The notes under the pieces were generated by a model. The model was not told the origin of the DNA, searched no databases, and was given only the letters and a program-made list of their open reading frames with translations. 64,000 bases of DNA, from the NCBI GenBank assembly GCA_035601835.1, contig DATNNM010000007.1:62001-126000 (forward strand), given 5' to 3'. The DNA is from Candidatus Tumulicola sp. GTDB taxonomy: Bacteria > Vulcanimicrobiota > Vulcanimicrobiia > Eremiobacterales > Eremiobacteraceae. Below, piece after piece: positions 28,462-34,748 of this stretch. Position 1 is the stretch's first letter, and each line of letters opens with the position of its first letter. The position numbers were made by a program, and so were the translations under genes.

Positions 28462-30000
28462 CTAGGTGCGGACGGGAAGAACCATATCGGTTCGGCCGGC
28501 CAGCTTCACGTTGTTGCGTCCGGAACGCTTCGCCGCGTACATCGCCGAATCCGCAGCCTGCACGAGCGCGGCCTTCTCGGAGACGTCTTGCGGATAACCG
28601 GCGACCCCGATCGATGCTGTGATTTTGGCGACCTTCTCGCCCAAGGCGAAATCCATGTCCTCGATCGCCTCGCGCATGCGGGAGGCCACCATCGCCGCTT
28701 CAGCCTTGATCGTTCCGGGCATGAGCACGACGAATTCATCGCCGCCGTAGCGGCAGCAGATGTCGACCTTGCGGGCGTGCTGGCGGATGACTTCGCCTAC
28801 TTTGCGGAGCAGATCGTCACCCTGCGGGTGCCCGTACGTGTCGTTGACGCGCTTGAAGAAATCCACGTCGAGGATCAGCAGCGAAAGCGATTGACGCGTG
28901 GTGCGCGCGCATCGGAACTCCGTCTCGAGCCGCTCTTGGTATGCGCGGTTGGTCAGCAGACCCGTCATCGAGTCGGTTTCGGCGAGCTCCAGCGTCTTGG
29001 TGTGCAGGCGCGCGTTTTGAATGCCGACGGCGGCGAGGCGGACGAGCCGATCGATCAGCCGTTGATGATCGAACCCATAGATGCCGGCTTTCGTCGAGGT
29101 CAGGGCGATGCAGCCGATGGTCACGCGTTCGCTCACGATCGGAACCGCAAGGCAGCCGTGCACCGCTCGCGGCTTCGTGACATGCGTTTCGCGATAATCC
29201 TTTTGCAGATCGGCCACGATGATCGGACGCTGCTCCATCGCAGCGTGGCCGATGACGCCTTCACCGAAGCGCAGACTCGCGCCGCGATAGTAGTCCGCGT
29301 ACACCCCGTCCACCGCTTCGGCGTGCAGCATTTCTTCTTTGGCGTCCTCGTCGAAGCGCGCGATGAACACCACGACGTTGCTCCACGGCACCGACTCTCG
29401 GAATTGACGGATCATCTGCACGAGTTGGGTCAAGACCTCGGGCATCGTCACTTTGACGCCGAGATCCGAGCCGGCTTCGAGCACCTTGTTGATCGCGATG
29501 ATCTGATAGTCAGCGCGGCGCCTGCCGTACAGCCCGTATGCGGCGCCGACGTACGTCAGCAACGAGGTGCATAGCGGGAACATCAGCGCGCTTGCGAGAT
29601 CGGTGGAGCGCGCGAACAGCATCATCGCCGCGATGGCCATGGCGGCGAACAGCAAGGCCAGCAGCGCGGTCACGACGGGAAGGGCCGCCGCGTCGAGCCC
29701 GGCTAGCATGATCAGCGCGCTGAAACCGGAGTAGTACGCCACGGCGATGGCAGCCGCGATGTCGAGCAGCACCAAGAGCAGGAGCGTGGTTTTCGAAAGG
29801 TCTTCCGAGCGATCGGGGGCCCTGTTGAATACTTTGGGCCCAAGGGCGATGCCGCTCGTCAACAACCCGTAACCGACGAGGCTTGGGTACATCCAATAGG
29901 GGAGCGCGTCGCCAAGCGGCGCGATCAACGCTTGGACGATGGCAAGCCATCGCATCGCGGCGATGAGAACGGGAAATGTCAGTCCGCGCGCGGCGTTCAG
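28462..30000 (-). CDS. Diguanylate cyclase: membrane helices, GAF and GGDEF domains
   Basis: Makes cyclic di-GMP. It has five or six N-terminal helices, a GAF domain (about residues 185-330 of 512) and a C-terminal GGDEF domain. The active site is RYGGDEFVVL, and an inhibitory I-site RKVD lies five residues before it, so product feedback is likely. I place the start at CTG 30000 because AGGAG (30012-30008) lies exactly seven bases upstream and the extension (NAARGLTFPVLIAA) continues the first helix. The first standard start is ATG 29955, which gives 497 aa and has no ribosome site. Confidence 0.88.
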   Translation of the reverse strand: MNAARGLTFPVLIAAMRWLAIVQALIAPLGDALPYWMYPSLVGYGLLTSGIALGPKVFNRAPDRSEDLSKTTLLLLVLLDIAAAIAVAYYSGFSALIMLAGLDAAALPVVTALLALLFAAMAIAAMMLFARSTDLASALMFPLCTSLLTYVGAAYGLYGRRRADYQIIAINKVLEAGSDLGVKVTMPEVLTQLVQMIRQFRESVPWSNVVVFIARFDEDAKEEMLHAEAVDGVYADYYRGASLRFGEGVIGHAAMEQRPIIVADLQKDYRETHVTKPRAVHGCLAVPIVSERVTIGCIALTSTKAGIYGFDHQRLIDRLVRLAAVGIQNARLHTKTLELAETDSMTGLLTNRAYQERLETEFRCARTTRQSLSLLILDVDFFKRVNDTYGHPQGDDLLRKVGEVIRQHARKVDICCRYGGDEFVVLMPGTIKAEAAMVASRMREAIEDMDFALGEKVAKITASIGVAGYPQDVSEKAALVQAADSAMYAAKRSGRNNVKLAGRTDMVLPVRT

Positions 30001-30025: not shown

Positions 30026-32383
30026 TTAGACGAGTTTTAGCTGGGTATCGTCTGGTCCAGCGCCTTCCCGGCGGCGCCGCGGTGGGGGTCCGGAGCTCAC
30101 CGGCCTTTCCTCAATATCATCGGCAATTTCTTGCGCGCGGCGCACGACGTCCGCTGGCAGGCCGGCCATTTTGGCGACGGCGATCCCATATGAGCGGCTG
30201 CTCGAGCCATGCAGCAAGCGGTGCGAGAATACCGGCCCGCCGGGCTCCTCAGCGACCGCCACGTGCAAGTTCTGGACGACCGGGTAGGCGCTCGAGAGCT
30301 TTACGAGTTCGTGGAAATGCGTCGCGAAGAGCACCATGGGCATGCCCGCATCGAGACCAAGCAGGTGTTCGCACACCGCCTGCGCGATGGCCAGGCCGTC
30401 CGTCGTGCCGGTCCCTCGGCCGACCTCATCGATGAGCAGCAGACTCGCGCGCTGACTGCGGCGCAAGATCAGCGCCATCTCCGCCATCTCGACGTAGAAG
30501 GTCGAGCGGCCGGCTGCGATGTCGTCGCCCGCGCCGATGCGCGTGAACAAGCGCTCCACGATGCCGATGCGCGCGCTCTCCGCCGGCACGAAGGAGCCCA
30601 TTTGCGCGAGGATCGCGAGCAGCGCGGTTTGCCGCAGGTACGTGGACTTGCCGCCCATGTTCGGGCCGGTGATCAAGAGGAAGCGCTGCTCCGCGTCGAG
30701 ATGGCAATCATTGGGCACGAAGTCGACGCCGCCGTACGCCTCGACGATCGGATGGCGACCCGCGACCACGTGCACTTCATCGGCCTCGACGATCTCCGGC
30801 CGGACGTAGCGCCGCTCGCCGGCCACCTGCGCAAGCGAGCAATACACGTCGATCTCCGCGACGGCTTCGGCGAGCGAGAGCAGCGCATCGCGCGACGCCG
30901 CCACCGTTGCCACCAGTTCGTCGAACAGTTCGCGCTCCACGGCGATCTGGCGCGAGCGCGCGCTGAGGATCTCTGCCTCGAGCGCGCGCAGCTCTTCATT
31001 GACGAAGCGCTCGGCGTTGACCAGGGTTTGGCGCCGCACGAAATCGGCCGGCACGCTGTCGGCGTGCGCGCGCGTCACTTCGAAATAATAACCGAACGCC
31101 TGCGTATACTTGACTTTGAGCGATTTGATGCTCGTGCGCCGGCGCGTTCGTTCCTCGAGTGCCAGGAGATGCTCGCGCGTCTTGGTGCGCAACTCCACCA
31201 GCGCGAGCAATTCGGGCGAGTGTTCGGGCCGGATGGCGCCCCCATCCGCGAGGTTCGCCGGCGGATCATCGGCTAGCGCCGCCCGCAGCTGCCCCGCCAG
31301 CGGCCCTGCGACGGTCATGTAGCGTTCCGAGCGAAGCTCGGAGAGCCTTTGCGTCGCTTCCAGCGAGTCGCGCAGCGCCGCCAAGTCTTTCGGACCCGCG
31401 CGCAGCGCCGCAACTTTTTGAACGATGCGCTCGATGTCCGCGATGGAGGCGAGCGCTTCTTGAAGGCGCACGCGCAGCGCCGCCGCCAGGACCAGTTCTT
31501 CCACGCGATCGTGGCGGGCGCGGATGCGCTCGACATCCACGAGCGGCGCGCACAGCCAGCGCGCCAGCATGCGGCTGCCCATCGGCGTCTTGGTGCGCGA
31601 CAGCACGCCGAGCAGGGAGGCGCGCGAGTTCTCGCCGCTGCCGCTCGTGAGGTCCAGGTGACGGCGCGTCGCCGGATCAAGCATCATCGAGGCGCGCGCG
31701 GTCCGGGCCCGCGCCCGCGCGGTAATCGCCCTGCCGTCCAGCCGCAGATAGGTCAGGTACGACGAAAGCAGCTCGAGCGCCGAGTTCGCAGCCGGGCGTT
31801 CCGAGCGCGCGAATTCCTCGAGCTGGCTGCCGTCGAGCGTCGCCGCTTGATCTTCCACCTCCGCGACCGCGATGCGGCACTGCGCAGAGACGAAGGGGCG
31901 ATAGCGCGCGACGTCTGCATCGTCGGCGACCACGATCTCCGAGGGTGCGGTGCGATCGAACTCGGCCGCCAGTTCGTCGTCGTTTTCGACCACGCACACG
32001 CTCGCTGAGCCCGTGGAGACATCCGCAGATGCCACCGCGGTCACGCCGGCCTCGGTGGCGATCGCACACAGGTAATTGTTGCGCTCGGCGGCCAGCAGGT
32101 GCTCTTCGAGCACCGTCCCCGGCGTGATGACGCGAACGATTTCGCGGCGCACCAGGCGGTTGGGAGCCGGCGGCTCCATCTGCTCGGCGATCGCGACGAC
32201 GCGCGCCTGTCTGATCAGCCGCGCGAGGTAGATGTCGAGGTTGTGGTGCGGTACCCCGGCCATCGCGACGCGCCGGCCCTTGCCGGCTTCCTTCGAGGTG
32301 AGGATGATATGAACTGAAGCTGCCAGGTCTTCGGCGTCGGCGCCGTACGCTTCGTAGAAATCGCCGACGCGCGAGAGCATCAA
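30026..32383 (-). CDS. mutS: DNA mismatch repair protein MutS (5' end uncertain)
   Basis: Recognises mismatches. The 785 aa from TTG 32383 include the mismatch-contacting Phe-x-Glu (GDFYEAYG at about 8-14), connector, core and clamp domains, Walker A GPNMGGKS at 573-580 and LLIDEVGRGT. The C-terminus is short. The frame upstream of the TTG reads SSPLIAQYVALKAQYPEAL, the conserved MutS N-terminus, yet no ATG, GTG or TTG occurs in frame back to a stop within miaB. A CTG at 32464 is a candidate start. Translation from 32383 would lose about 25 conserved residues. Confidence 0.93.
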   Translation of the reverse strand: MMLSRVGDFYEAYGADAEDLAASVHIILTSKEAGKGRRVAMAGVPHHNLDIYLARLIRQARVVAIAEQMEPPAPNRLVRREIVRVITPGTVLEEHLLAAERNNYLCAIATEAGVTAVASADVSTGSASVCVVENDDELAAEFDRTAPSEIVVADDADVARYRPFVSAQCRIAVAEVEDQAATLDGSQLEEFARSERPAANSALELLSSYLTYLRLDGRAITARARARTARASMMLDPATRRHLDLTSGSGENSRASLLGVLSRTKTPMGSRMLARWLCAPLVDVERIRARHDRVEELVLAAALRVRLQEALASIADIERIVQKVAALRAGPKDLAALRDSLEATQRLSELRSERYMTVAGPLAGQLRAALADDPPANLADGGAIRPEHSPELLALVELRTKTREHLLALEERTRRRTSIKSLKVKYTQAFGYYFEVTRAHADSVPADFVRRQTLVNAERFVNEELRALEAEILSARSRQIAVERELFDELVATVAASRDALLSLAEAVAEIDVYCSLAQVAGERRYVRPEIVEADEVHVVAGRHPIVEAYGGVDFVPNDCHLDAEQRFLLITGPNMGGKSTYLRQTALLAILAQMGSFVPAESARIGIVERLFTRIGAGDDIAAGRSTFYVEMAEMALILRRSQRASLLLIDEVGRGTGTTDGLAIAQAVCEHLLGLDAGMPMVLFATHFHELVKLSSAYPVVQNLHVAVAEEPGGPVFSHRLLHGSSSRSYGIAVAKMAGLPADVVRRAQEIADDIEERPVSSGPPPRRRREGAGPDDTQLKLV

Positions 32384-32544
32384 GGCCTCGGGATACTGCG
32401 CTTTCAGCGCGACATATTGCGCGATGAGCGGTGAGCTGGCGGTCGCCTCTTCGGCCGCGACCAGCGCGTGGCCATTTTCCGCCGTGCCGGCGGCGTCGCG
32501 ATCTTGGTGCGGGGCCCGCGCACCGCGTGCGCTCTTGCGAACCT

Positions 32545-33867
32545 TTAGGCCACCTGTCCGGAGAGGCCCCAGTTGAAGGCGCGATCAATCGCGACGCGCG
32601 CGACCGGCGCGTGCGCGGTGGCGTCCGTTCGCGGATAGATGACCGTCACGTTGTGCCCGCTCTTGCCGGCCATGTTCGAAGGATCTTTCTTGGAGGGGCC
32701 TTGCGCCAGCACTTCGAGCGTCTCGCCGATGAACGACTCGTGGAAGCGCCGCGTGGCTTCGTTCTGCGCCGCGTTGACCGCCTGCAGGCGCCGGATCTTC
32801 TCTTCCGGCGGCACTTGCGGCGTCATGCTCGCAGCCGGCGTGCCCGCGCGCGGCGAGAACGCGAAGATGAACGCTTGCTCGAACGTGCCGCGCTGCACGA
32901 TGTCGAGCGTCTTGAGGAAATCATCCTCGCTTTCGGTGGGGTAGCCGACGATGAGGTCGGTGGTCAGCGCCCAGCCTGCGAGGCGCTCCCGGAAGTACGC
33001 GATCTTGTCCAAGTATTCTTCAATCGTATACAACCGCGCCATTGCAGCGAGCACGGAGTTGCTGCCGCATTGCACCGGCAGGTGCAGGCGCGGCGAGACG
33101 TTGGGCAATTGCGCCAGCGCGTCGACGACCTTCGGTCCGAAGTCCTTCGGATGCGAGGTGATGAAGGTGAGACGCTGGAGTCCTTCGATGGAGCCGATGC
33201 GCAGCAGCAGATCGCCGAAGTCGAGCCCCGTGGGTTCCCACAAGTACGAGTTGACGTTTTGGCCGAGCAGCGTGATCTCGCGAGCGCCGCAGCGGATCTC
33301 GCGGCGCACCTGCGCTTCGATCTCGTCGGGGTCGATGCTCTCAAGCGGGCCGCGCGTGTACGGCACGATGCAGTAGGTGCAGAATTTCTCGCAGCCGCGC
33401 GTGATGTTCACGAGCGCGCGCAGGTGCGCGAACTCAAGGGCGGCGTCGTGCGCCGGATCGTCCTCGGCGGAGGGCATGACGAAGTCGGTGCCGGGGGGCG
33501 GCGCGTCGGTGGGCACGCCCCATTCGCCGAGCAGCGCTTTGAAACGCTTGTATTCGCGCGGACCGAGCAGCGCGTCGACGAACGGCGCCTTCTTCTGCAT
33601 GATGTTGCGGTCTTTTTCCGCGAGGCAACCGGCGACGAGCAGTTTCGTCTGCGGATGCTGCTCTTTGAGGACCTTGAGCTGGCCGAGGCGACCGTAGACG
33701 CGCAGTTCAGCCTTTTCGCGGATGGCGCACGTGTTGATGATGATGATGTCGGCGTCTTCAGGCTGCTTGGCGAACGTGCAGCCCATCGACCAGGCCTGAT
33801 GGGCCAAGCCGTTTGAATCGGCGACGTTCATCTGGCAGCCGAATGTCTGCAGATAGATGGAAGCCAT
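32545..33867 (-). CDS. miaB: tRNA-2-methylthio-N6-dimethylallyladenosine synthase
   Basis: Radical SAM methylthiotransferase that completes ms2i6A37 on MiaA-modified tRNAs. The 440 aa contain the N-terminal cluster cysteines (YLQTFGCQMN C11, NTCAIRE, AGCLAEK), the radical SAM motif ITRGCEKFCTYCIVPYTRG and a C-terminal TRAM domain. ATG at 33867; the frame extension to 34047 has no family similarity. mutS follows immediately on the same strand. Confidence 0.96.
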   Translation of the reverse strand: MASIYLQTFGCQMNVADSNGLAHQAWSMGCTFAKQPEDADIIIINTCAIREKAELRVYGRLGQLKVLKEQHPQTKLLVAGCLAEKDRNIMQKKAPFVDALLGPREYKRFKALLGEWGVPTDAPPPGTDFVMPSAEDDPAHDAALEFAHLRALVNITRGCEKFCTYCIVPYTRGPLESIDPDEIEAQVRREIRCGAREITLLGQNVNSYLWEPTGLDFGDLLLRIGSIEGLQRLTFITSHPKDFGPKVVDALAQLPNVSPRLHLPVQCGSNSVLAAMARLYTIEEYLDKIAYFRERLAGWALTTDLIVGYPTESEDDFLKTLDIVQRGTFEQAFIFAFSPRAGTPAASMTPQVPPEEKIRRLQAVNAAQNEATRRFHESFIGETLEVLAQGPSKKDPSNMAGKSGHNVTVIYPRTDATAHAPVARVAIDRAFNWGLSGQVA

Positions 33868-33917
33868 TGGCCGGCCTGGTTCGCGCCGACCGCTTGAGGT
33901 TCCCCGCGTGGTGGCGC

Positions 33918-34748
33918 TCACTTCACGCCCTTGATCTTTTGCAGCAGCGATTGCGGCAGGTAGAGCTTGCCTGCGACGAGGGCCGGTGATATCTCGAGCG
34001 TACCGGCTTTGCCGTTGTAGGTGTAGGAGCGCGACCCGATCCTGCACTTGACCTGGACGCCGCGATAATGGATCGTGATCTGGTCGCCGGACCGCGCGAT
34101 CGCTTCCGGCGGCAAGAAGCTGCTTGCCGGCGCAAGGATCTCCTCCGCCTCGGGGTTGGAACGCGCGGACGCGAGGTTCACGGCGATCGAGGTCGTCGTA
34201 TCAGGATACACCTCCACCGCGCGCAGCAGGTGAGCGCCGCTCTTGGGCACGACCGACACGATATGAAACCCCGCCTTCACTTTCACGGCGCCGGCAACGG
34301 GCAGAGTTCCGATTTTCGAGCCGTCCACGAACACGCTCGCGCCCGCGGGTGAACCGCGAACGAAAAGCGCCCCTTCCCCCTTGCTCGCCTGCGCGGGCGC
34401 GCGCGTCGCCTTCTCGAGGACCAATGCGATCATGGTGACGTGCCCGACCGCGATGTCGGTCGATGCGGTCTGCGCTTGCCAACCCGTGCGCGAGACGGTG
34501 AAGGCATGTTTGCCGGGCGTCAGCAGATCGATGTACGTGGGCGAACGCCCGGCGTACTGACCATCCACCCACACCTCGGCGCCTTCCGGAAGCGTGGTGA
34601 CAAACGCGCCCCCGTGCGAAGGGAGTTGCGTCGCGGTGGGTGCGGCAGTGGGTGCCACGCTGACTGACGGAGCCGCTGTAGGCGAAGGGCTCGCGAACAA
34701 CATCGCAGAGCGTAGGGCGAGTGCGACCACGATCGCGAGTTGAAGCAT
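33918..34748 (-). CDS. Secreted protein with two PEGA domains
   Basis: 276 aa. A signal peptide of about 20 residues is followed by a Ser/Thr/Pro/Ala linker, then two PEGA repeats: about 46-110 (GAFVTTLPEGAEVWVDGQYAGRSP in outline) and about 125-190 (GALFVRGSPAGASVFVDGSKIGTLP). The C-terminal ~70 residues (KCRIGSRSYTYNGKAGTLEISPALVAGKLYLP in outline) resemble the copper-amine-oxidase-like surface domain also seen in the amidase at 13800. A cell-surface or cell-wall-binding role is inferred. It diverges from der. Confidence 0.8.
   Translation of the reverse strand: MLQLAIVVALALRSAMLFASPSPTAAPSVSVAPTAAPTATQLPSHGGAFVTTLPEGAEVWVDGQYAGRSPTYIDLLTPGKHAFTVSRTGWQAQTASTDIAVGHVTMIALVLEKATRAPAQASKGEGALFVRGSPAGASVFVDGSKIGTLPVAGAVKVKAGFHIVSVVPKSGAHLLRAVEVYPDTTTSIAVNLASARSNPEAEEILAPASSFLPPEAIARSGDQITIHYRGVQVKCRIGSRSYTYNGKAGTLEISPALVAGKLYLPQSLLQKIKGVK

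Follow-up and report, generated by a model that had tools for sequence, protein, structure and literature searches.

The window, as we refer to the whole stretch of DNA analyzed here, comprised 64,000 nucleotides of contig DATNNM010000007.1 from Candidatus Tumulicola sp., and it carried the mismatch repair gene mutS directly downstream of miaB on the reverse strand (Table 1). The mutS gene was a single long, stop-free frame; all five MutS domains, MutS_I to MutS_V, were matched by Pfam, the GDFYE mismatch motif was present, and solved MutS structures in the PDB were matched with a best E value of 1.3e-153. The C-terminal DDTQLKLV (30029-30052, reverse strand) resembled a beta-clamp binding motif. 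The gene was therefore intact, not broken, apart from its unusual start. As a preliminary description of this DNA had observed, the mutS frame held no ATG, GTG, or TTG from an in-frame TGA within miaB (32587-32585) to the neighboring TTG 32383 and ATG 32380, although LIAQYVALKAQYPEAL was encoded 5' of that TTG. The conserved SPLIAQYVALKAQYPEAL fell within the same interval.

Table 1. Features of the mutS start region and its surroundings in the window (SD, Shine-Dalgarno; ORF, open reading frame; energies in kcal/mol)
Feature	Coordinates	Strand	Remarks
mutS	30026..32542	-	838 codons plus stop, counted from GTT 32542; stop at 30026
TTG-ATG, first canonical codons of the mutS frame	32378..32383	-	A MutS starting here would be without conserved residues
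N-terminal MutS extension	32435..32542	-	36 residues here; found in 9/14 family genomes
CTG of the preliminary description, rejected as start	32462..32464	-	3' of the APHE block, which is conserved; SD -5.0 (spacing 13)
RAPHQD, conserved extension motif	32501..32518	-	Residues 9-14 from GTT; APHE in the other eight genomes
GTT, proposed mutS start	32540..32542	-	2 bases past the miaB stop; RTN column of relatives
miaB (tRNA methylthiotransferase)	32545..34047	-	ORF with UPF0004 and Radical_SAM Pfam matches; directly upstream; stop TAA 32547-32545
AGGTGG, Shine-Dalgarno-like site	32550..32555	-	Inside the miaB 3' end, 7 bases before GTT 32542; duplex -8.9

A homology search for mutS matched all 61 genomes. 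Fourteen of these (G000 to G013) formed the family of the window's genome (Eremiobacterota/Vulcanimicrobiota), with G000 being that genome itself, and a further scan of contigs, from which 80 of 343 loci encoding a relative were retained, added no clear further member of the family among those 80. In an alignment of 13 of the 14 family genomes (A1, G010 omitted), residues S37-Y43, L46, K47, P51, and A53 of MutS were invariant in 13/13, and the Pfam MutS_I match started at residue 39 of 30029-32545, where TTG 32383 is residue 55. Because the invariant residues lie 5' of both TTG 32383 and ATG 32380, a start at either codon would remove conserved sequence.

In nine family genomes (G000, G001, G004, G005, G006, G007, G008, G011, and G013), the conserved SPLIAQY was preceded by an extension containing APHE, or APHQ in G000. 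The other five (G002, G003, G009, G010, and G012) had no extension and started at a GTG or TTG that overlaps the miaB TGA by four bases. Between APH and SPLIAQY lay a linker of 24 to 29 codons, which came in four different lengths and was in frame in 9/9. Codon mismatch in APHED between the nine genomes was 0.089, 0.078, and 0.556 at positions 1, 2, and 3, and a control stretch from SPLIAQY on gave 0.16, 0.093, and 0.489; over an 18-codon block, the mean BLOSUM score was 1.79 in the mutS frame but 0.36 and 0.28 in the two alternative frames. Because mismatches concentrated at third codon positions, as they did in the control, the APHE extension is, by this coding signature, translated in the mutS frame, which would place the mutS start 5' of 32518-32501.

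Exactly nine codons before APH, seven of the nine extension genomes had an RTN codon (ATN or GTN): GTT in G000 and G006, GTG in G011 and G013, and ATC in G001, G007, and G008. The equivalent in G005 was ATT eight codons before APH, and in G004 it was GTG thirteen codons before APH; the background of RTN in the linker was 15 of 230 codons (6.5%). A putative non-canonical start (GTT, ATC, or ATT) was thereby kept in 6/9 extension genomes, with GTG in the three genomes of genus g5. Relative to the miaB stop, all six non-canonical candidates lay at -1 to +2 bases on the same strand, with ATC following directly on an in-frame miaB TAG in G001 and G008, ATC overlapping the stop by one base in G007, and the codon standing two bases behind the stop in G000, G005, and G006. 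In G008, that ATC was the sole start-like codon before APH among the 13 canonical and near-cognate codons tested. A canonical start was firmly absent in G000, G006, G007, and G008 and probably absent in G001 and G005. The unusual, apparently near-cognate start of mutS is, as read from these genomes, common in kind to several genera of the family.

The proposed starts also differed in their Shine-Dalgarno (SD) sites. Duplex energies (kcal/mol) were computed with an assumed canonical anti-SD, because no 16S rRNA was found in the 14 family genomes: searches for the 16S 3' end by pattern returned 0/1, 0/1, and 0/14, and a search with the Rfam small-subunit rRNA model returned 0/14 (controls were found in 9/14), so that 16S rRNA was missing either from the drafts or from the stretches examined. 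Energies at the six non-canonical starts ranged from -5.8 to -11.3 (G000 -8.9, G001 -8.6, G005 -9.4, G006 -5.8, G007 -11.3, G008 -8.6), without overlap with the eight GTG or TTG starts, which ranged from -0.7 to -4.7 (G002 -3.5, G003 -2.7, G004 -1.7, G009 -4.7, G010 -2.7, G011 -0.7, G012 -3.5, G013 -2.0). The exact Mann-Whitney p value for this contrast was 0.00033, with kinship among the six and eight genomes ignored. Among 71 outgroup mutS loci (L055-L125), a canonical codon preceded RVGDFYE by 23-31 codons in 67, and the SD energies of those canonical starts had a median of -2.9, with 4.5% at or under -8.

Near-cognate initiation in the family is likely, because infC had ATT AGC at its start place in 14/14 family genomes. 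A census of other non-canonical starts sampled 795,055 bases from G000, including the window, and 389,316 bases from G005 and gave 167 non-overlapping ortholog pairs, 146 of which were evaluated after 21 were dropped (cut ORF, <40% identity, or <70 amino acids). Sixteen pairs were flagged by the first rule and 33 by the second, and flagged pairs were judged by eye. Among the 146 pairs, infC was the only other gene judged to have no canonical codon at its conserved N-terminus; the remainder had a canonical codon a few codons inside, or were internal or wrong-frame alignments. The rule did not settle recX, for which canonical codons were present further upstream. The mutS pair was itself unflagged, as its alignment enters the miaB overlap, where G005 has TTG, and the sensitivity of the census was therefore limited. 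A selD-like gene, named by eye, was flagged on account of an in-frame TGA, which it carried in SCAG-TGA-ASK on contig C11 of G000 and contig C3 of G005, and this TGA looks like a selenocysteine codon.

We consider it probable (about 70%) that mutS is complete and translated by initiation or reinitiation at the near-cognate AUN/GUN codon GTT 32542-32540 by the miaB stop. This reading rests on the lack of a canonical start, the translated APHE extension, a start column with a free third base, an SD that is strong where the codon is non-canonical, and the adjacency of the start to the miaB stop. Ribosomes finishing miaB, or 30S subunits held by AGGTGG, would initiate at GTT with fMet-tRNA, and the strong SD would offset the weak start codon. 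By analogy, mutS would be read at a low level by ribosomes leaving miaB, and it is possible that the level of MutS is low or regulated. The use of GTT, the coupling of termination to reinitiation, the low yield, and repression by initiation factor 3 (IF3) are each parts of the reading that we infer. Of the starts suggested in the preliminary description, “another rare start” was thus supported.

Several observations weigh against GTT as the start. The nine codons preceding APH showed no codon periodicity (0.574, 0.515, and 0.586), and homology alone therefore places the start no more precisely than upstream of APH. GTT differs from ATG in two of its three bases, a GTG (SD -5.0) is present in G001 two codons ahead of APH, and in G006 an ATA at -11 (-5.3) scored like GTT, as did a CTG at -19. 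In a tree of MutS, genus g5, whose starts are canonical, was sister to G000 and the five extension-free genomes formed one group (support 82/98), so that few independent changes underlie the SD contrast. The SD of mutS falls within codons of miaB and could in part be a by-product of the MiaB C-terminus. Finally, the SD energies of the infC ATT were as weak as -0.5 in G000 and -1.0 in G005 (range -0.5 to -7.4, 12 scored), which does not bear out a strong SD as a general requirement of weak codons.

The other codons of concern lie within miaB and would imply a start overlapping the miaB end, at CTG 32572-32570 in G000, CTG in G006 and G007, and TTG in G005, which we regard as unlikely. CTG 32572 is open in the mutS frame, the protein alignment of G000 and G005 extends to it, and all four genomes with mutS in the -1 frame relative to miaB have such a codon 9-10 codons ahead of the proposed start. 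The SD of the G006 codon (-5.8) equaled that of its GTT, and the codon kept in G005 is canonical (-4.7). However, these codons are forced by MiaB codons of the other frame, and the alignment into miaB is expected because MiaB codons overlap there. The SD was only -1.3 in G000 and -2.5 in G007, and a stop intervenes in the same-frame genomes G001 and G008.

A start at CTG 32464, as the preliminary description had proposed, or at another codon between APHE and SPLIAQY, is very unlikely. CTG is a common near-cognate start, this one is indeed present in the mutS frame, and GTG codons are present in the linker of G004, G005, and G011. However, the conserved RAPHQD lies at least 12 codons upstream of CTG 32464 (residue 27), and the block shows third-position variation in the mutS frame; translation of APHE upstream excludes this CTG, unless that conservation has another cause. 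Its SD was also poorly spaced.

A MiaB-MutS fusion, produced at the end of miaB through either stop readthrough or a -1 frameshift, is more improbable still. The mutS frame continues that of miaB behind a single stop in G001, G008, G011, and G013 and is in the -1 frame in G000, G005, G006, and G007, but a fusion would require two different recoding events across genera, no slippery heptamer was found by eye at the miaB end, and G011 and G013 have a plain GTG. That the start was hidden by a sequencing or assembly error, or has decayed in a mutator genome, is hardly credible even for a draft of 18 contigs, as a canonical start was likewise missing in the separately assembled genomes of other genera (firmly in G006, G007, and G008, probably in G001 and G005) and all MutS domains were intact with no stop. 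Equally remote is a truncated MutS from TTG 32383 or ATG 32380: these are the first canonical codons in frame, with an SD of -5.9 at spacing 4 for the ATG, but the product would lose the residues invariant in 13/13 and the start of domain I, and in G008 (L052) no canonical codon precedes RVGDFYE. Nothing was found that points to truncation or to the raised mutation rate that the preliminary description had derived from it.

Among the remaining outgroup loci, L123 was cut by a contig end. Three closely similar loci from metagenome-assembled genomes (L073, L074, and L077) had no canonical mutS start close to the conserved N-terminus. Each carried a CTG 25 codons ahead of RVGDFYE, a position that GTG occupies in several other loci, and the SD energies of these CTG codons were -7.5, -5.8, and -8.3. 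They perhaps represent a second, independent near-cognate mutS case, with an ATG at -19 as the alternative.

Downstream of mutS, a GAF-GGDEF protein (28462-29955, reverse strand; Pfam GGDEF E 2e-44, GAF_2 E 1.1e-13) is encoded between mutS and mutL. In 11/14 family genomes, a GGDEF string was found 1.3-1.4 kb past the end of mutS; G005 had mutL-like motifs directly, mutS left the stretch in G013, and G011 was covered for 687 bases.

Near-cognate starts are familiar from infC, which starts at AUU in E. coli, AUC in Streptomyces, and AUA in S. aureus. The proposed mutS starts resemble this AUN initiation, which the infC of the family appears to share; however, infC autoregulates IF3, whereas for mutS there is no such loop and the codon is variable (GTT, ATC, ATT, GTG). 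The pcnB gene of E. coli is reportedly also started at AUU. In S. aureus, cvfC1 starts at AUU and ccpN at AUA, AUU and AUA starts carry extended SD sites, and the start sites assayed with reporters gave ~10% of AUG output in poor medium (PMC13009471). As would be the case for mutS, a weak start keeps the yield of these three genes low, and the S. aureus genes add the extended SD; however, their starts were experimentally mapped, and none, so far as those accounts go, is a repair gene that follows directly on an upstream stop.

The closest likeness in codon is to Streptomyces sigR, in which a GTC start lies behind an AGGAGGTG site (an extended ribosome binding site) and is repressed by IF3 (PMC5472188). 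Both have GTN with a non-G third base and a strong ribosome binding site, are conserved in a clade, and are missed by gene callers limited to ATG, GTG, and TTG. However, sigR encodes a sigma factor and was supported by Edman data, stop scanning, and IF3 mutants (PMC5472188), whereas the mutS start is proposed from sequence, and its codon follows the stop of an upstream gene. In that respect, mutS resembles termination-reinitiation pairs, as its start lies -1 to +2 bases from the upstream stop and, in the five extension-free genomes, a canonical codon overlaps that stop; unlike in such pairs, the proposed restart codon is not AUG, GUG, or UUG. IF3 overproduction reduced re-initiation in E. coli (PMC2268962).

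Few bacterial genes with near-cognate starts are known (PMC5472188, PMC13009471), and those that have been mapped are under translational control. A search of the open-licence PMC literature returned no title on a near-cognate mutS start. The interest of the present case is that it concerns a repair gene and that start codon and SD strength co-vary, giving a comparative set in which GTT, ATC, ATT, and GTG occupy one position and SD strength changes with them. If the proposed start is used, callers limited to ATG, GTG, and TTG would shorten mutS in these genomes. A further possibility, which we hold to be doubtful, is that placing mutS on an IF3-repressed AUN/GUN codon read by ribosomes finishing miaB wires mismatch repair to translation fidelity, with the weak codon kept by selection and its strength balanced by the SD. 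In that event, MutS supply and the mutation rate would follow the IF3-to-ribosome ratio and miaB translation. A repair gene with a putative near-cognate start in several genera would offer a natural test of whether initiation sets MutS dosage.

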